From Bacteroidales bacterium (lineage in GTDB: Bacteria; Bacteroidota; Bacteroidia; Bacteroidales; UBA3824), in contig JAEERW010000006.1 of the NCBI GenBank assembly GCA_016286055.1, forward strand, positions 62,001 through 126,000: DNA of 64,000 nucleotides. Reading direction: 5' to 3'. A model generated the notes under the pieces. The model saw only the letters and a list, made by a program, of their open reading frames with translations. It did no database searches and was not told the DNA's origin. Made by a program: the position numbers and the translations under genes. Each line of letters begins with the position of its first letter. Position 1 is the first letter of the stretch. Shown here one piece after another: positions 48,279 to 63,840 of this stretch.

Positions 48279-51200
48279 TTATTCTTGTTGAACATTTTTC
48301 ATTTTCTTTTGAATTTCGCGCAAAGCATCTTCGTGCAAAACGCGTTTGTATTCGATAGGCGTTACTTGGATAAACTCTTCGATATAAGTGTCCCAATCGT
48401 CTAACATTCGCTTAGCCAAGGGCGAATTTGTGTGGCGGTAGTGGCTTTCGATAAGTGAGCGAAGTTCGTTGCGGCGGGCTTTTTCTTCAATAAGGCTGAG
48501 TTCAATCATATCCATATTGCAGTAGTAGTCGAAGTTGTGGTTTTTGTCCCATACGTAGGCAAGACCGCCACTCATACCGGCTGCAAAGTTGCGTCCTGTG
48601 GTGCCGAGAACTACCACGCGACCGCCTGTCATATATTCGCAGCAATGGTCGCCTGTGCCCTCTACCACGGCTGTGGCACCTGAGTTGCGCACTGCAAAAC
48701 GTTCGCCTACACGTCCGTTGATGTAAATTTCGCCTGATGTAGCGCCGTAAAGTATTGTGTTGCCGGCAATTATGTTTTCCTCAGGGGCAAATGTGGCGTT
48801 GTGTGCAGGGTAAATGCTTATTGAGCCGCCCGAAAGCCCTTTGCCTACATAGTCGTTGGCCTCGCCTTCGAGTTTGAAACTTACGCCCGGAGCAAGGAAT
48901 GCACCGAAACTTTGTCCTGCCGAACCACGGAACTGAATGTTTACCGTATCCTGAGGCAATCCGGCTGCACCGTATTTCTTAGCAATTGAGCCTGAGAGCA
49001 TTGCGCCCACAGCACGGTCGGTGTTGATAATGTTGTAATAGAGGCTTACCGGTTTTTTGGTTTCTATTGCGTTGGTTGCGCCTGTAATTATCTTGTTGTC
49101 AAGCACTTCGGGTAATGTATGAACATTGTCCTGTGTTTTGTGCAATGCTGCATTGCCGCTGATGCGAGTAAGCATTTTGGCAAAATCGAGATTGCGAGTT
49201 TTGTCGGTAAATTTGGTTTGGTCAATTTCGATGAGATCGGTGCGTCCGATAATGTCGTCGAACTTGCGGAAGCCCATTTCTGCCAAATATTCACGTACTT
49301 CCTGAGCCAAAAATGTGTAGTAATTAACCAAATATTCGCTGCGACCAAGGAAACGTTCGCGCAATTTTGGGTCTTGGGTTGCCACGCCCACGGGACAAGC
49401 GTTGGTATGACATTTACGCATTAATACACAGCCAAGTACAATCAATTGAGCCGTTCCAAATCCGAACTCACCTGCACCAAGAAGTCCCATTGCTATAATG
49501 TCGCGACCGGTTTTCAGTTGTCCGTCGGTTTGAACCTCTACTTGCGAACGTAAGTTGTTGAGTACCAATGTTTGCTGAGTTTCCGCCAAACCAATTTCGG
49601 GCGAAATACCTGCGTAACGTATTGATGATGCGGGAGATGCACCTGTTCCGCCTTCTGCACCAGAAATTACAATCAAATCGGCTTTTGCTTTTGCCACACC
49701 TGCGGCAATGGTTCCTACGCCTGTTTCGGCCACAAGTTTAACGCTGATTTTGGCTTTGGGGTTAACATTGCGAAGGTCGTAAATCAACTGTGCAAGGTCT
49801 TCGATAGAGTAAATATCGTGGTGAGGCGGTGGCGAAATCAACGAAATGCCGGGGATAGAGTTACGAGTTTTGGCAATTACCTCGTTTACCTTAAATCCGG
49901 GCAACTGTCCACCCTCACCTGGTTTTGCGCCCTGAGCCACTTTAATTTGAATTTCAGAGGCGTTTACAAGATATTCAGCCGTTACGCCAAAACGTCCGCT
50001 TGCCACCTGTTTAATGGCACTACTGAGCGAAACTCCGTCTTTGTTGGTGTAGAAACGGGCATTGTCTTCGCCGCCTTCACCTGTATTGCTACGACTGTGT
50101 AATTTGTTGAGTGCAAGAGCAATAGCCTCGTGAGCCTCTTTGCTGATTGCACCAAACGACATAGCCGCGCCAATAAAACGCTTAACAATGTTGTCGACCG
50201 GCTCAACCTCGTCGATAGAAATGGGATTGCTCTTAAACTTGAAATAATCGCGCAAGAAAAGAGGCTCGGGCTTATTGTCAATGATAGAAGTAAATTCTTT
50301 GAATTTTTTGTAACTGCCTGTGCGTGTTGACAATTGAAGTGCTGCAATGGCTTCGGGAGTCCAAGCGTGACGGATTCCGTCTTTGCGATACGAGAATTGT
50401 CCAACGTAGGGCAGGAGGGTGTCGCTGTCGATTTTGGCAGTGAAACCGTTGTCGTGCATTTTAATAGAGTCGGTGGTGATGCGGTCTAAACCGATTCCGC
50501 CAACGCTGCATTTTTTGGTTCCAAAATAGGTTTGCAAAAAGTCGCTTCCAAGGCCGATAGATTCAAAAATCTTGGCACCGCGGAACGAACGTATTGTGCT
50601 GATACCCATTTTGCTCATTATCTTCAAAAGACCCTTGTCGATAGCCTTGATGTAGTTGTGTTCGGCGGTGGCATAGTCGAGTTGGAGTTCGTCATTTTTA
50701 ACAAGGTCGTCGATAACGGCAAACGCCATGTAGGGGTTGATTGCGCTTGCACCAAAACCGAGCAAAAGTGCTGCGTGCATTACCTCGCGGATTTCGCCAG
50801 ATTCTACAATCAACGCTGTTTGAACACGTTTTTTGATAGAAACAAGGTAATGGTGAATGGCGCTAACAGCCAACAAAGAAGGAATGGCGGCGTGGTCTTT
50901 GTCGATGCCACGGTCGGTAAGAATAATATAGTTAATGCCCTTGTTTACAGATTCTTCGGCGGTTTTGCAAAGGTTGTCGATAGCCTCGCGCATACCTTGT
51001 GCGCCTTTTTTGATTTCAAACAAGATGGGCAATTTTTCGGTATTGAATCCTTTGTAACGAATGTTGCAGAGGGTTTCTAATTCGGTGTTGGTAAGCACTG
51101 GCTGAGGCAAACGAACCATTTTGCAGTTGCTTGGATCGGGGTTTAGAATATTGGTGCTTACTGCGCCGATGTATTCGGTGAGCGACATTACAAGTTCCTC

Positions 51201-52748
51201 GCGAATGGGGTCGATAGGCGGGTTGGTAACCTGTGCAAACTGTTGACGGAAATAGTTGAACAACAATTGCGGACGGTCAGACAGTGCTGCAAGTTGAGTG
51301 TCGTTGCCCATAGAAGCGAGCGGCTCTTGCGCATTGGCACACATTGGGGTAATGGTGCGTTCCACATCTTCGCGGGTAAAATCAAAACAGCGGAGTTTGA
51401 GTTGATAATCGTCAACCGTGTTGGCTGCGTGACGACCCGAATGAAGTTTTGCAAGTTCGATTCTATTATCTTGAAGCCAACCTGTGTAATCTTTTTCGTC
51501 GGCGAGTTTTTGTTTGATTTCGTCGTTAGAATATATTGTACCGGTTTCGGAGTCGATAACAACGATTTTGCCCGGCTGCAAACGACCGTTAGCCTTAATT
51601 TTGTCGGCGTCGATATGCAGGCATCCAACCTCCGACGAAAGAATCAACCTTCCCTCGGTGGTGAGCACATAACGTGCGGGGCGAAGTCCGTTGCGGTCTA
51701 ACATTCCACCGGCGTAACGTCCATCGGTAAAAATCAGAGCGGCAGGACCATCCCACGGCTCCATCAATATAGAATGATATTCGTAGAAAGCCTTGATTTT
51801 GTTGCTGATAGGGTTCTTTTCGTTAAACGATTCGGGCACCATCATTGCCATAGCGTGAGGCAACGACATACCTGAACGAACAAAAAATTCCAAAACATTG
51901 TCGAATGCAGCACTATCGCTCATATCGGCTTGAATAATAGGCGAAAAGTTTTCTAAACCGCCGAGTTTTTCGGACGATAGAACGCTTTCGCGGGCTTCCA
52001 TCCATTTGCGGTTGCCACGGATGGTGTTGATTTCGCCGTTGTGGGCAAGCATACGGAAGGGCTGTGCCAACGGCCATGTGGGGAAGGTATTGGTGCTAAA
52101 ACGAGAGTGTACCAACGCCAATCCGCTTGTAAAATTGGGGTTAGAAAGGTCGGCATAATATTGACGCAATTGCATCGACGACAACATTCCTTTATAGATA
52201 ATTGTGCGAGTAGAAAGCGACACAATGTAGAAATCCTTGTCTTGAATACGTTTTTCGATACGTTTGCGGAGAAGGTAAAGACGGGTCTCAAATTTGGCTG
52301 TATCATCTTCGCCTGTGATAAAAATCTGAACAATACGGGGTTCGGCGGCACGCGCCTCCTCACCGAGCACATCTGAATTAACGGGCACTTCGCGCACCTT
52401 CAAAAGGTTGAGTCCCTCGTTTTCGGTTTCTTCGATAATGGCGGCTAAATATTTGTCGCCGAGTGCTTTATCTTTGGGCAGGAACACCATTCCCGCGCCA
52501 TATTTAAGTTTTTCGGGCACGGGAATGCCCTGTAATAGGATAAATTCGTGCGGAATTTGCACGAGAATACCGGCACCGTCGCCGGTTTTGTTGTCGGCAG
52601 CCTCAGCACCGCGGTGTTTGAGGTTTTCGAGCACGGTAAGTGCGTCAGCCACAAGTTGGTGGGTTTTGTTACCCTTCAAGTCAACGAGCAAACCGATACC
52701 GCAAGCATCGTGTTCGTTGTCTTTTGAGTATAGTCCTATGTCTTTCAT
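48279..52748 (-). CDS. gltB: Glutamate synthase large subunit
   Basis: DACGIGLLVDLKG; GGEDNARF; SGAEGGTGASP; start at MKDIGLY. Confidence 0.96.
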   Translation of the reverse strand: MKDIGLYSKDNEHDACGIGLLVDLKGNKTHQLVADALTVLENLKHRGAEAADNKTGDGAGILVQIPHEFILLQGIPVPEKLKYGAGMVFLPKDKALGDKYLAAIIEETENEGLNLLKVREVPVNSDVLGEEARAAEPRIVQIFITGEDDTAKFETRLYLLRKRIEKRIQDKDFYIVSLSTRTIIYKGMLSSMQLRQYYADLSNPNFTSGLALVHSRFSTNTFPTWPLAQPFRMLAHNGEINTIRGNRKWMEARESVLSSEKLGGLENFSPIIQADMSDSAAFDNVLEFFVRSGMSLPHAMAMMVPESFNEKNPISNKIKAFYEYHSILMEPWDGPAALIFTDGRYAGGMLDRNGLRPARYVLTTEGRLILSSEVGCLHIDADKIKANGRLQPGKIVVIDSETGTIYSNDEIKQKLADEKDYTGWLQDNRIELAKLHSGRHAANTVDDYQLKLRCFDFTREDVERTITPMCANAQEPLASMGNDTQLAALSDRPQLLFNYFRQQFAQVTNPPIDPIREELVMSLTEYIGAVSTNILNPDPSNCKMVRLPQPVLTNTELETLCNIRYKGFNTEKLPILFEIKKGAQGMREAIDNLCKTAEESVNKGINYIILTDRGIDKDHAAIPSLLAVSAIHHYLVSIKKRVQTALIVESGEIREVMHAALLLGFGASAINPYMAFAVIDDLVKNDELQLDYATAEHNYIKAIDKGLLKIMSKMGISTIRSFRGAKIFESIGLGSDFLQTYFGTKKCSVGGIGLDRITTDSIKMHDNGFTAKIDSDTLLPYVGQFSYRKDGIRHAWTPEAIAALQLSTRTGSYKKFKEFTSIIDNKPEPLFLRDYFKFKSNPISIDEVEPVDNIVKRFIGAAMSFGAISKEAHEAIALALNKLHSRSNTGEGGEDNARFYTNKDGVSLSSAIKQVASGRFGVTAEYLVNASEIQIKVAQGAKPGEGGQLPGFKVNEVIAKTRNSIPGISLISPPPHHDIYSIEDLAQLIYDLRNVNPKAKISVKLVAETGVGTIAAGVAKAKADLIVISGAEGGTGASPASSIRYAGISPEIGLAETQQTLVLNNLRSQVEVQTDGQLKTGRDIIAMGLLGAGEFGFGTAQLIVLGCVLMRKCHTNACPVGVATQDPKLRERFLGRSEYLVNYYTFLAQEVREYLAEMGFRKFDDIIGRTDLIEIDQTKFTDKTRNLDFAKMLTRISGNAALHKTQDNVHTLPEVLDNKIITGATNAIETKKPVSLYYNIINTDRAVGAMLSGSIAKKYGAAGLPQDTVNIQFRGSAGQSFGAFLAPGVSFKLEGEANDYVGKGLSGGSISIYPAHNATFAPEENIIAGNTILYGATSGEIYINGRVGERFAVRNSGATAVVEGTGDHCCEYMTGGRVVVLGTTGRNFAAGMSGGLAYVWDKNHNFDYYCNMDMIELSLIEEKARRNELRSLIESHYRHTNSPLAKRMLDDWDTYIEEFIQVTPIEYKRVLHEDALREIQKKMKNVQQE

Positions 52749-52793
52749 TCCTTTCAAAATTATGACGTTTGTTCCATTATTATTTTGACACTG

Positions 52794-52920
52794 CAAAAGT
52801 ATTTTGGGGGCATATTTTATGCAATACCGATTGTTCGTAATGGGTTATAAAAAAATGTACGTGAATATACGCAGAAAGAATAAGGGTTTTTTGTAGGGGG
52901 GATAAGAGAAATACGGATGG
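52794..52920 (-). promoter_or_regulatory. gltB upstream region with conserved nitrogen-gene promoter elements
   Basis: TACTTTTG (52794-52801), CCATTACGAACAATCGGTATTGCAT (52819-52843), CCGTATTTCTCTTA (near 52903-52920), all minus strand. Confidence 0.75.
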
Positions 52921-52940: not shown

Positions 52941-52969
52941 GTAGAGACGCCATAATATGACGTCTCTAC
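52941..52969. repeat. REP palindrome
   Basis: gtagagacgccataatatgacgtctctac. Confidence 0.9.
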
Positions 52970-54459: not shown

Positions 54460-54488
54460 GTAGAGACGCCATAATATGACGTCTCTAC
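54460..54488. repeat. REP palindrome
   Basis: gtagagacgccataatatgacgtctctac. Confidence 0.9.
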
Positions 54489-58536: not shown

Positions 58537-58752
58537 ATGTTAAATAAGACGTTCCCCAAAAAGATATTTTTCTGCGTTTATTCGCCCGAATTGCTTAGCA
58601 ACAAAGGGGAGAATTCTACCGAGAAAGATGCAGGGATGTTTAAAAAAGCCCAAATCAATGGCACTGTGGCACATATTACGGCTATTTTTGGATTTACTAT
58701 TGCGGGGTTGGTTGTGCAGGATATTTATAAAAATAGAGACGCCATAATATGA
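58537..58752 (+). pseudogene. Truncated, internally deleted tcdA 3' fragment
   Basis: NKTFPKKIFFCVYSPELLSNKG...KAQINGTVAHITAIFGFTIAGLVVQDI matches the C-terminus of TcdA at 29523-30323. Confidence 0.85.
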
Positions 58753-58760
58753 CGTCTCTA
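58734..58760. repeat. REP palindrome
   Basis: tagagacgccataatatgacgtctcta. Confidence 0.85.
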
Positions 58761-58781
58761 CGGTGTCTAATAATCACATGT

Positions 58782-60968
58782 TTAATTGATAAACAGCAAT
58801 TCACGGTATTTGGGAAGAGGCCACATGTCGTTGTCGACTACCTCTTCAAGTTTGTCGATGGGTTTGCGGATGGCAAAGAGCGATTCGGCTATTTTGTAAT
58901 ATGCCATGGCTTTTTCGTATTCGTCGGTGATCTTGTTGGCTACCTTGCGGGCTTCAATCATGGCGTAAACCTTGTCGTGAATGTCGGTTACACGCTCAGA
59001 GATTTTTTCTACAAGTTCGATTTCTACTTTTGCCATTTGCTGATATTTGTTGGGGAAAAGTTCTTTGATTTTGGCAATGTTGTCCAAAAGTTTGGTTTGA
59101 TATGCAAGCGCGGCGGGAATAATGTTGTTGATTGCCATTAAGCCCATTACGCGTGCCTCAATCTGAACTTTCTTAGAGTAGATTTCCCAACGTACCTCGT
59201 TGCGGGCTTCGAGTTCTTTTTCGGTGTAAACGCCCATACGGGTAAACATCTCGATGTTCTGTTTTTCGGTGAAAGCCTTAAACATCTGGGGAACGCAAGT
59301 TTCAACGTCCAAACCACGTTTTTTAGCCTCTTTCTGCCATTCGTCGGAATATCCGTTGCCGTCGAAGCAAATTACATTGATAATCTTCTTGATAATGGGT
59401 TTGAGAGTGTCCATTATGGCAATGTTCATAGATTTTCCGGCAGCCATTTCTTTGTCGACAGCGGCTTTAAATTCGGTAAGTTGGTCGGCAACGGCGGCGT
59501 TGAGGGTGGTCATTGCGTTGGCACAGTTGGCGCTTGAACCTACGGCGCGGAACTCAAATCTGTTGCCGGTGAATGCAAACGGTGATGTACGGTTGCGGTC
59601 GGTGTTGTCGATAAAGATTTCGGGAATCTCAACCAAGCCAACCGATTTGCCCTTTTTGCCGGCGATTTCGATGGGGGTATCCGACGGAACTTCAAGAAGT
59701 TTGTGCAATACGTCGGTCATAGTTTTGCCAAGGAATGCCGAAACAATAGCCGGAGGTGCTTCGTTGGCGCCAAGACGGTGTGCGTTGGTGGCAGATGCGA
59801 TTGAGGCTTTGAGCAATGCGTTGTATTTCTGAACGGCTGCCAAAACGTTTACAAAGAATGTTACAAACTGCAAGTTGCCTTTTGAATCTTTGCCGGGAGC
59901 GAGTAGGAGAGTGCCTGTGTCGGTACCCAACGACCAGTTGTTGTGTTTGCCCGAACCGTTGATACCGTCGAAGGGTTTTTCGTGCATCAACACTACAAAT
60001 CCGTGTTTACGAGCAACGGCGTTCATAGTGTTCATTATCAATTGGTTCTGGTCGTTGCTGAGGTTGGTTTCGCCAAAAATGGGCGCAAGTTCAAACTGGT
60101 TGGGGGCAACCTCGTTGTGACGGGTTTTCAAAGGAATACCGAGTTTGTAACCTGCAATTTCGATGTCACGCATAAAAGCCATCACACGCGAAGGAATTGC
60201 GCCAAAATAGTGGTCGTCTAACTGTTGGTTCTTAGACGAAGCGTGACCCATAAGAGTGCGTCCGGTGAGCATAAGGTCGGGACGTGCGGCGTAAAGGTCT
60301 TCGTCTACAAGAAAATACTCCTGTTCCCAACCCAAGTAAGAGTATACCTTTTTAACCTTGGGGTCGAACATTTTGCAGATAGGCAGAGCGGCGTCGTTAA
60401 CCGCTTTGAGAGCCTTTTTGAGGGGGGTCTTATAGTCGAGAGCCTCACCTGTGTATGCTATAAATACTGTGGGAATACAGAGGGTGTCGTCCTGAATAAA
60501 AACGGGTGAAGTGGGGTCCCAAGCCGTGTAGCCGCGAGCCTCAAAAGTGGCACGAATACCGCCGCTTGGAAACGACGAAGCGTCAGGCTCTTGCTGAGCA
60601 AGCGATTTGCCGTCGAAAGTTTCAATCATGCCGCCCTTGTTGTCGTAATCCATAAAGGAGTCGTGCTTTTCGGCAGTTCCTTCGGTAAGGGGCTGAAACC
60701 AGTGAGTAATGTGGGTTACACCGTGAGCCAGAGCCCAAGTTTTCATACCGGCAGCCACGTGATCGGCGGTTTCGCGGTCGAGGGGTTTTCCGTTGTCGAT
60801 GCAGTCGATAAGCGCATTGTAAGTCTTGATATCGAGATACTTATGCATTTTTTCGCGGTTGAACACCAACTCGCCGAAATATTCCGACGGACGTGCGTCG
60901 GGAGTGTCCACTGCAACGGCTTTCTTTTTGAAAGCGTCCTGTACTACGTCAAATCTAAGTTTGCTCAT
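58782..60968 (-). CDS. glnN: Glutamine synthetase type III
   Basis: 728 aa; FDGINGSGKHNNWSLGT, RNRTSPFAFTGNRFEFRAVGSS. Confidence 0.95.
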   Translation of the reverse strand: MSKLRFDVVQDAFKKKAVAVDTPDARPSEYFGELVFNREKMHKYLDIKTYNALIDCIDNGKPLDRETADHVAAGMKTWALAHGVTHITHWFQPLTEGTAEKHDSFMDYDNKGGMIETFDGKSLAQQEPDASSFPSGGIRATFEARGYTAWDPTSPVFIQDDTLCIPTVFIAYTGEALDYKTPLKKALKAVNDAALPICKMFDPKVKKVYSYLGWEQEYFLVDEDLYAARPDLMLTGRTLMGHASSKNQQLDDHYFGAIPSRVMAFMRDIEIAGYKLGIPLKTRHNEVAPNQFELAPIFGETNLSNDQNQLIMNTMNAVARKHGFVVLMHEKPFDGINGSGKHNNWSLGTDTGTLLLAPGKDSKGNLQFVTFFVNVLAAVQKYNALLKASIASATNAHRLGANEAPPAIVSAFLGKTMTDVLHKLLEVPSDTPIEIAGKKGKSVGLVEIPEIFIDNTDRNRTSPFAFTGNRFEFRAVGSSANCANAMTTLNAAVADQLTEFKAAVDKEMAAGKSMNIAIMDTLKPIIKKIINVICFDGNGYSDEWQKEAKKRGLDVETCVPQMFKAFTEKQNIEMFTRMGVYTEKELEARNEVRWEIYSKKVQIEARVMGLMAINNIIPAALAYQTKLLDNIAKIKELFPNKYQQMAKVEIELVEKISERVTDIHDKVYAMIEARKVANKITDEYEKAMAYYKIAESLFAIRKPIDKLEEVVDNDMWPLPKYRELLFIN

Positions 60969-61015: not shown

Positions 61016-61141
61016 CAAAGGTATTGTAGGGGTGTTTTATATGCAATACCGATTGTTCGTAATGGAAAGAAAAAAAATGTACGAGATTTTGTTATGTGAG
61101 GTACGAGTTTTTGTTAGAGGGGATAAGGGAAATACGGAAGG
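61016..61141 (-). promoter_or_regulatory. glnN upstream region with conserved nitrogen-gene promoter elements
   Basis: TACCTTTG (61016-61023), CCATTACGAACAATCGGTATTGCAT (61041-61065), CCGTATTTCCCTTA (near 61124-61140). Confidence 0.75.
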
Positions 61142-61182: not shown

Positions 61183-61211
61183 GTAGAGACGTCATTTTAT
61201 GGCGTCTGTAC
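61183..61211. repeat. REP palindrome (variant)
   Basis: gtagagacgtcattttatggcgtctgtac. Confidence 0.8.
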
Positions 61212-61232
61212 AAATGCGTAATGGTACACCGC

Positions 61233-61261
61233 GTAGAGACGCCATATTATGACGTCTCTAC
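61233..61261. repeat. REP palindrome
   Basis: gtagagacgccatattatgacgtctctac. Confidence 0.9.
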
Positions 61262-61302
61262 AACAACCAATCGAACCAACAACCAAACGAAAACGAATAA
61301 AT

Positions 61303-61959
61303 ATGACCGACGATAAATTCAAAAATAAATACCGTATACAATCTGCACGTGCAGCGTGGCACGATTACAGTGGCGGAACGTATTTCGTGACAATATGCAC
61401 CAAAAATCGTGAACATTATTTCGGTGAAATTGTTTATGACCAAAAACAAGAGGCAAAAATGGATTTTTCGGAAATGGGTGATTTTACAGAAAAATGTATT
61501 GCCAAAATGGAAACGTTGCATAATGATATTGATGTTCCCCTGTGGGTTGTAATGCCAAATCATATTCATTTGTTGGTGATTGTAAAACGTGATGTTGAAT
61601 TGGGGCAAAATGGACAAAACGCCAAATCCGGTCAATACGCCCAATCCGTAGAGACGCCATATTATGACGTCTCTACAACAAATGACGTTTCCACCAATGA
61701 CGACCCCACCAATGCAAAAAAAATCCAAATGAAAAATATTGCAAATCAATGTGGTAGGTTGTCGCATATTATATCACGATTTAAAACTGCCGTAACAAAA
61801 TATGCCCGTGAAAAAGGAATTTATTTTCAATGGCAATCACGTTTTCACGACCATATTGTCCGTGATTGGGACGAATTGAATCGTATTTCTGATTATATCG
61901 AACATAACCCTGATCGATGGGCGCAAGATATTTTTAATACAACCATTGATTCGCCATAA
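61303..61959 (+). mobile_element. REP-associated tyrosine transposase (RAYT, IS200/Y1-like)
   Basis: GGTYFVTICTKNREHYFGEI; WVVMPNHIHLLVIV (HUH motif); C-terminal YIEHNPDRW; flanked by REP palindromes. Confidence 0.92.
61648..61676. repeat. REP palindrome inside the RAYT coding sequence
   Basis: gtagagacgccatattatgacgtctctac, read in frame as VETPYYDVST. Confidence 0.92.
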
Positions 61960-61961
61960 TC

Positions 61962-61990
61962 GTAGAGACGTCATATTATGGCGTCTCTAC
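61962..61990. repeat. REP palindrome, opposite orientation
   Basis: gtagagacgtcatattatggcgtctctac = exact reverse complement of the 52941 copy. Confidence 0.9.
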
Positions 61991-62017: not shown

Positions 62018-63685
62018 TCAATACGCATTTTCGTGTACCCCTTTTACTGCCCTGCCGCTGGGGTCGTTGAGGTTTTTGAATGAGGGGTCCCATGCCAAGG
62101 CTTCGGCGGTAGAACATGCCACACTCGGTACGCTCGGTACGCTCATTGCCGCAGAATCGCTTGGGAAAAGTTCTGAGAAAATTGAACGGTAATAATATTC
62201 CTCCTTGTTCATGGGAGTGTTGATGGGGAAACGTTCGGCTGCGTGAGCCATCTGTTCGTCGGTAACTGCCTTTGAAGTCATATCTTTGAGACTATCGATC
62301 CAACTGTAACCCACGCCGTCGGAAAACTGTTCTTTCTGTCGCCAAGCAATGCTTTCGGGCAACATATCCGAAAATGCAAGACGTACCACGCGTTTTTCTA
62401 TCTCCTTGCCGGGACACATTTTGGCTTCGGGATTCAGGCGCATTGCCACGTCTAAAAATTCTTTGTCTAAAAACGGAACGCGCCCCTCGACACCCCATGC
62501 CGCAAGCGACTTGTTTGCCCTCAGACAGTCGTAGAGGTAAAGTTTGCCGAGTTTGCGCACCGTCTCGTCATGAAAACTCTTTGCATCGGGTGCTTTGTGA
62601 AAATAGAGGTAACCGCCAAAAATTTCGTCGGCACCCTCGCCGCTGAGCACCATCTTGATGCCCATAGATTTTATTACCCTTGCCAAAAGATACATTGGTG
62701 TACTTGCGCGGACAGTGGTAACGTCGTATGTTTCAATGTGATAGATTACGTCGCGAATAGCATCCAAACCTTCCTGCACGGTGTAGTTAACCTCGTGGTG
62801 CACAGTGCCGAGATGATCTGCCATAACGCGAGCCTTAGCCAAGTCGGGCGAACCTTTGATGCCCACTGCAAACGAGTGCAGACGCGGCCACCAAGCATGT
62901 TCCTGATCGTCGGTTTCAACGCGTTTGGCTGAATACTTGTTGGCAACGGCCGAAATTACCGAACTGTCTAATCCGCCCGAAAGCAACACTCCGTAAGGCA
63001 CATCGCTCATAAGTTGACGTTTAACAGCGGCTTTGAGAGCATCGCCAAGTTCTGTTACGTCGGCTTTGTTGTTTTTTACTGCCTCGTAGTTGAACCAATC
63101 GCGGTGCCACCAACGGCGCATTTTGCCCTCCTTGCTGTAATAATAGTATCCGGGGAGGAAAGGTTCGTATTTTTCGCAAAAACCCTCCAAAGCCTTCAAC
63201 TCGCTTGCTACATAGACAGTTCCGTCGTAATCGTAGCCTATATAAAGAGGAATAATTCCGATATGGTCGCGAGCGATAAGGAAAGTGTCGTTTTCCTCGT
63301 CGTAAAGGCAGAAAGCAAAAATACCGTTGAGGTCTTCGATAAAATTGATACCCTTTTCTCTGTAAAGGGCAAGAATCACCTCGCAGTCAGATCCGGTTTG
63401 AAACTCGTATTTGCCTTTGAGACGTTCGCGTATCTGTTGATGGTTGTAAATTTCGCCGTTGACAGCCAGTGCCACCTTTTTGTCTTTGGTGTAAAGCGGC
63501 TGACCGCCCGAAAGCGGGTCCACGATAGCGAGCCTTTCGTGAGCCAGCACACAACGTTTGCTACTATATACTCCGCTCCAATCCGGACCGCGGTGTCTAA
63601 TTTTCGACGACATCAGCAACGCCTTTTCGCGCATCTTTGCCGACATTCCGTCGCATATATTCAGTATTGCTACAAATCCGCACAT
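62018..63685 (-). CDS. asnB: Asparagine synthase (glutamine-hydrolysing)
   Basis: MCGFVAILN; IRHRGPDWSG; GVLLSGGLDSSVISA. Confidence 0.95.
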   Translation of the reverse strand: MCGFVAILNICDGMSAKMREKALLMSSKIRHRGPDWSGVYSSKRCVLAHERLAIVDPLSGGQPLYTKDKKVALAVNGEIYNHQQIRERLKGKYEFQTGSDCEVILALYREKGINFIEDLNGIFAFCLYDEENDTFLIARDHIGIIPLYIGYDYDGTVYVASELKALEGFCEKYEPFLPGYYYYSKEGKMRRWWHRDWFNYEAVKNNKADVTELGDALKAAVKRQLMSDVPYGVLLSGGLDSSVISAVANKYSAKRVETDDQEHAWWPRLHSFAVGIKGSPDLAKARVMADHLGTVHHEVNYTVQEGLDAIRDVIYHIETYDVTTVRASTPMYLLARVIKSMGIKMVLSGEGADEIFGGYLYFHKAPDAKSFHDETVRKLGKLYLYDCLRANKSLAAWGVEGRVPFLDKEFLDVAMRLNPEAKMCPGKEIEKRVVRLAFSDMLPESIAWRQKEQFSDGVGYSWIDSLKDMTSKAVTDEQMAHAAERFPINTPMNKEEYYYRSIFSELFPSDSAAMSVPSVPSVACSTAEALAWDPSFKNLNDPSGRAVKGVHENAY

Positions 63686-63714: not shown

Positions 63715-63840
63715 CAAAGTTATGGCTGAGCCACATTGTATGCAATACCGATTGTTCTTAATCGGATGAAAGTTTTTTTACGAGATACCTTTACGAAGTG
63801 TAAGAGAAATTGGTATGGCAAGTAAGGGAAATACGGATGG
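63715..63840 (-). promoter_or_regulatory. asnB upstream region with conserved nitrogen-gene promoter elements
   Basis: TAACTTTG (63715-63722), ATTAAGAACAATCGGTATTGCAT (63740-63762), CCATCCGTATTTCCCTTA (63823-63840), plus degenerate copy 63801-63818. Confidence 0.75.

Follow-up and report, generated by a model that had tools for sequence, protein, structure and literature searches.

A RAYT gene of a Bacteroidales bacterium with its cognate REP palindrome in frame

Our analysis of a 64,000-nt stretch of Bacteroidales DNA (the window) shows that a RAYT gene carries its own REP within its coding sequence: GTAGAGACGCCATATTATGACGTCTCTAC, a 29-nt REP at 61648–61676 on the plus strand, lies in frame and encodes VETPYYDVST, residues 116–125 when numbered from the ATG at 61303. 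A preliminary description had noticed this palindrome inside the transposase ORF, with the same translation and with the frame open to the conserved C-terminus, and we find both the element and an uninterrupted frame. It had also called the palindrome the gene's own REP, which agrees with our finding that it is the cognate REP of the gene and matches the REPs in the gene's flanks. The observation is real and ordinary for this RAYT subclass; its extension is that RAYT-borne REPs may outlive all of a genome's other copies.

The RAYT gene and the REP in its linker

The RAYT (TnpAREP) coding sequence extends from 61303 to 61959 on the plus strand and comprises 218 aa plus the stop codon TAA (61957–61959). 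Alignment of homologues places the start at ATG 61303, which on homology replaces ATG 61249, the start of the program's longest ORF, located inside an upstream REP. The earlier identification as a RAYT is borne out by a match to NCBIfam REP_Tyr_transpos (NF047646; 53.6 bits, E=2.1e-14), which is below the curated cut-off of 80 bits required for assignment to this equivalog, and by a Foldseek search of an AlphaFold2 model (built with 35 sequences) against the PDB, in which the top hit is the REP-bound TnpAREP 4er8 (E=2.6e-6, prob 1.00). Pfam Y1_Tnp matches weakly (20.6 against a cut-off of 23), and a profile made from ten homologues retrieves E. coli TnpAREP 4er8 with E=1e-7.

The protein carries the HUH motif NHIH (residues 86–89; 61558–61569, plus strand), WQ at residues 177–178 and the catalytic tyrosine Y198 in YIEHNP (codon 61894–61896, plus strand). 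A set of 133 non-redundant full-length homologues from genome collections shows no variation at H87, H89, Q178 and Y198, and all but one of them (132) have W177. Based on AlphaFold2 pLDDT and homologue lengths, the linker from strand beta3, which holds the HUH motif, to helix alphaC spans about residues 95–151 (61585–61755, plus strand), and its length varies from 20 to 149 aa among the homologues. While most of the modelled core has pLDDT values above 90, residues 101–104 and 106–132 are below 50, and the REP-coded residues 116–125 fall within this stretch between beta3 and alphaC. The REP thus serves as linker-coding sequence, as had been read from the DNA, in a segment that the model predicts to be disordered.

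The term palindrome fits the outer 9-bp stem, which is perfect, and needs qualifying for the arms as a whole, which differ by one C/A mismatch. As RNA of the coding strand, the linker REP is predicted to fold into a hairpin of −15.4 kcal/mol (z −6.6), in line with the mRNA hairpin proposed earlier, and the predicted energies as ssDNA are −9.3 kcal/mol for the plus and −11.3 kcal/mol for the minus strand. The preliminary description had considered a sequencing or assembly artefact at 61640–61680. Such an artefact is ruled out because orthologues in two other, independent assemblies (L017 and L074) hold a REP in the same linker and phase; it is identical to the window REP in L017 and agrees at 28/29 nt in L074.

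Searching the window with the REP outer-arm pattern GTAGAGACG-N11-CGTCTCTAC at up to 3 mismatches gave seven matches (52941, 54460, 58733, 61183, 61233, 61648 and 61962) where none is expected, which leaves six relatives of the linker REP in the rest of the window, three of them in the flanks of the RAYT gene; the window's genome contains 22 matches in all. Upstream REP 1 (61183–61211, minus strand) is inverted relative to the linker REP and slightly degenerate, with one arm mismatch, and upstream REP 2 (61233–61261, plus strand) shares with the linker REP an identical 35-nt stretch that takes in flanking letters, CGTAG...CTACAACAA, found at 61232–61266 and 61647–61681 as had been noted before. 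This earlier placement of a further copy upstream stands, but REPs are not confined to that side: a downstream REP (61962–61990, minus strand), also inverted relative to the linker REP, starts 2 nt past the stop codon. The ends of the three flank REPs, GTAG...TAC, fit the double-foot GT[AG]G flanks of TnpAREP subclass 2.4. In the RAYT leader, upstream REPs 1 and 2 are predicted to pair into a long hairpin of −46.7 kcal/mol. The remaining family members in the window, at 52941–52969, 54460–54488 and 58733–58761 (the last with 1 mismatch), are dispersed and all on the plus strand. A footed palindrome lies downstream in 36 RAYTs, in 14 of them no more than 15 nt away from the stop codon; ribosomes are reportedly stalled by REPs close to stop codons, in work ascribed to Liang in 2015. 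Three RAYTs of the family were found in the window's own genome (the window gene, L046 on contig C23 and L184 on contig C5), and each has a different REP in its linker.

Apart from the REPs, a 26-mer, TATGCAATACCGATTGTTC[GT]TAAT[GC]G, is found at 52818–52843, 61040–61065 and 63739–63764, upstream of three minus-strand genes read as glutamate synthase (48279–52796), glutamine synthetase (58782–60968) and asparagine synthetase (62018–63685), and each copy has AAATACGGA, another shared element, some 65–70 nt further upstream. No further match to the 26-mer was found in the window's genome at up to 3 mismatches; it recurs with one to four copies each in 9 of 18 genomes of the genus that were searched, the window's own among them. 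The 26-mer is a candidate operator of a nitrogen regulon.

Relation to TnpAREP subclass 2.4 and other systems

REPs in frame inside tnpAREP genes have been described for subclass 2.4 (RAYT group 4) by Quentin et al. 2018 (PMC6006769); the parts of that paper drawn on here restrict the feature to subclass 2.4 and some of subclass 2.8, not subclass 2.2, and describe the loop as peripheral and able to tolerate insertions. Like the members described there, the window gene encodes an HUH-Y1 protein of Bacteroidota with a variable beta3-alphaC insertion, and its double-foot GTAG...CTAC REPs lie both in the flanks and in frame between the HUH and Y motifs. NHIH and WQ conform to the NH[IFV]H and WQ of the subclass, whereas the Y motif YIEHNP departs from the published YIxNNP at a position that is H in 7 and N in 93 of the 133 homologues. 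Motifs and REP features together place the window gene as a predicted nuclease gene of TnpAREP subclass 2.4 (RAYT group 4), and its internal REP is another case of the phenomenon reported in 2018. Because in-frame REPs of this subclass are already on record there, we make no claim to first discovery; single-copy linker REPs assessed genome-wide and phylogenetic tracking were not found in the main-text parts of PMC6006769 that were searched.

As discussed in PMC8266576 and PMC3733652, GTAG-footed REPs are bound and cleaved as ssDNA by E. coli TnpAREP. The window protein resembles it in fold and in the HUH/WQ/Y core, and by analogy a GTAG-footed hairpin would be its substrate; the E. coli protein (4er8) differs as a 165-aa chain of subclass 2.2, for which the parts of PMC6006769 drawn on here give no REP-in-gene feature. 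Short palindromic repeats also lie in frame within proteins as Rickettsia palindromic elements and as REPs in many other genes (Di Nocera 2013, PMC3733652), but there the hosts are unrelated to the repeat's transposase, whereas the host in the window is the repeat's own RAYT. REP hairpins were suggested in the same study to be able to lower RAYT expression.

The HUH-Y1 fold is shared with the IS200/IS605 transposases, where expression can likewise be reduced by hairpins within or close to the gene. The control hairpin of IS200 is located upstream of the coding sequence, in contrast to the window RAYT, which has a hairpin inside the coding sequence as well. We know of no demonstration of RNA binding by the RAYT family.

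Linker REPs among homologues and their genomes

Palindromes with a score of at least 9 were detected in the linkers of 97 of the 133 homologues, compared with 9 in the N part and 4 in the C part, and at a score of at least 11 the counts are 80, 3 and 2. The refutation considered earlier, homologues that all carry non-REP linkers, therefore fails; in 36 of the 133 RAYTs no palindrome could be recognised in the linker. Shared 14-mers between a gene and its own 1-kb flanks fall into the linker in 60 genes, into the N part in 7 and into the C part in 4; with the flanks of another gene as control, the linker count is 7. A footed REP could be recognised in the flanks of 55 genes, and in 37 of these the linker holds a copy at no more than 4/28 mismatches, 20 of them exact; the remaining core yields 2 such copies and another RAYT's linker 6. 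Mismatches are distributed bimodally, with few values between 5 and 10. Judged by such matching, the linker REP usually corresponds to the flank REPs of its own gene.

The GTAG foot is read as GTA/G (Val-Glu-Thr...) in 22 linker REPs and as xGT/AGA (Cys/Gly-Arg-Asp...) in 19, and never in the third phase, which would give a TAG stop. On a tree that was built without the linker and has many weakly supported branches, the phase switches at least 12 times and the linker REP is gained or lost at least 34 times. Since both stop-free frames are used, the REP peptide appears not to be what is kept.

In L052, a 347-aa ORF on the minus strand, the RAYT linker holds seven tandem in-frame REP peptides (VQTVCTPSLPxQNDANSI). 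Some linker palindromes outrun the REP, with arms of 19–28 bp; in L136, L149, L156, L174, L045 and L064 the arms reach 21–26 bp, well past the REP foot, which suggests that one arm was the template for the other or that inverted REP pairs collapsed.

REPs were counted genome-wide by a pattern search for canonical arms in draft assemblies. Under this definition, 19 RAYT-holding genomes have exactly one canonical REP, and it lies inside the RAYT in 11 of them (G155, G165, G170, G197, G214, G236, G296, G300, G315, G353 and G441), in the RAYT flank in one (G239) and elsewhere in seven. In other genomes the linker type is single-copy amid other REP types (G098, G164, G475 and, from a Flavobacterium clade, G487–G489), and in G490 the linker REP is the only exact match of its type. 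When 2 mismatches are allowed, nine such genomes yield few extra matches, mostly of other types or in other RAYTs.

In four RAYTs of the Flavobacterium clade, whose shared linker REP type is single-copy in every one of the genomes, the linker REPs are identical at 27–28 of 28 positions, while the remaining linker is 74–86% identical with many gaps. The Flavobacterium defluvii homologue at L127 has a single-copy linker REP too. Between the window RAYT and L017 the REP is exact, third positions of the core agree at 52% and the remaining linker at 75/120. Linker-REP similarity correlates with RAYT similarity (Mantel r=0.35, 0/2000 permutations; r=0.26 for pairs below 65% identity), and the linker REP sequence follows RAYT phylogeny. 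Stem differences between relatives are compensated in 77 cases vs 40 that are not, and paired changes usually keep the stem where REPs differ between near relatives, as in L065/L131 and L156/L146. A sign test also finds the REP better conserved than the remaining linker (24 vs 4 disjoint pairs, p=9e-5), but the test is weak evidence, as outer arms are common to REP families and inflate raw REP identity; unrelated REPs come close to the pooled REP identity of 0.74. For conservation we rely, instead of the sign test, on the Flavobacterium-clade set with its single-copy REPs and on the phylogenetic tracking.

In-frame REPs occur in other proteins of the genus as well. Among the genes for MmeI-type (type IIL) restriction-modification enzymes (L193, L196, L204–L210), all eight complete ones have an in-frame REP, perfect or nearly so, in the linker that joins the methyltransferase to the target-recognition domain (TRD); four different REP types, including the window's own in L209, occupy this homologous site. 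In the window's genome, putative lipoproteins have REPs in frame right after the lipobox cysteine (L001, L004, L005, L006, L009, L188 and L199), and in L006 a near-palindrome has the opposite orientation with the phase unchanged. RAYT autoregulation cannot account for the REPs in these two groups, and in-frame REPs in unrelated proteins lean towards tolerance.

Explanations for the linker REP

Retention in genomes without other copies leans the other way, towards the linker REP being used. We favour, at about an even chance, the reading that it is kept as a nucleic-acid element because it forms a hairpin that its own RAYT recognises. The coding sequence would then double as the RAYT's own GTAG-footed recognition hairpin, a double-foot REP set into the codons of a disordered loop, and the protein may recognise it in the gene, as ssDNA, or in the mRNA. 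The likeliest use would be that recognition limits the RAYT's own expression or activity. As the hairpin itself would be what the RAYT recognises, it, and not the peptide, would be retained while the peptide drifts, and the gene would always travel with one cognate REP. Autoregulation proper through the linker REP, which the preliminary description had also raised, is a tentative idea, well short of evenly balanced. Slightly less doubtful, yet still below even, is the reading in which selection keeps the linker REP as a cis-element integral to group-4 RAYT genes, even after all other REPs of its type are gone from the genome, with a domesticated RAYT regulating itself through it.

According to Quentin et al. 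2018 (PMC6006769), in the parts drawn on here, a RAYT often drops REPs nearby, and those that arrive in frame in a disordered linker survive as harmless insertions without function. We hold this to be rather doubtful for the linker REPs, even with the predicted disorder of the linker, the about equal use of both open frames, the at least 34 gains or losses on the tree, the tandem pile-up in L052, the different REP families in one MmeI interdomain linker and in lipoprotein tethers, and the many genes with in-frame REPs of Di Nocera 2013 (PMC3733652) in its favour. Exact palindromes last in the RAYT linkers of genomes that have no other copy of the type, and there the REP is more alike among relatives than the remaining linker; REP type tracks RAYT phylogeny, and matching to a gene's own flanks far exceeds matching to the REPs of other genes. 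Because 11 of the 19 single-REP genomes have their sole canonical REP within the RAYT, passive capture from dispersed REPs apparently cannot explain everything, and pure capture is weakened by the single-copy linker REPs.

The palindromes could also be upheld by mutation without selection, if template switching at ssDNA hairpins copied arm to arm and RAYT-mediated REP exchange swapped the centres. The mostly paired stem changes, the arms that extend beyond the REP and the different centres at the homologous MmeI site would fit; arm-copying, however, preserves symmetry and not sequence, yet sequence is kept across species that lack donor copies, and we regard such upkeep as unlikely. A role of the encoded decapeptide at the protein level, as a hinge or interaction motif, is highly improbable. 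RAYTs that read the REP in one phase do arrive at similar peptides (VET..SLQ or CRD..VST), but the centres vary freely, and third codon positions of the REP agree at 194/253 vs about 140 expected from the core, a count inflated by the shared arms; with two frames in use, we rejected peptide-level function as the main cause.

To date, REPs inside their own RAYT genes have been taken for harmless insertions. The comparisons with related genomes suggest that the linker REP is kept for a reason and is more than tolerated. Where a genome's only REP lies inside the RAYT, the spreading of REPs can be told apart from a need of the RAYT gene itself. Such genomes offer a clean experimental system for the role of RAYTs in their hosts.
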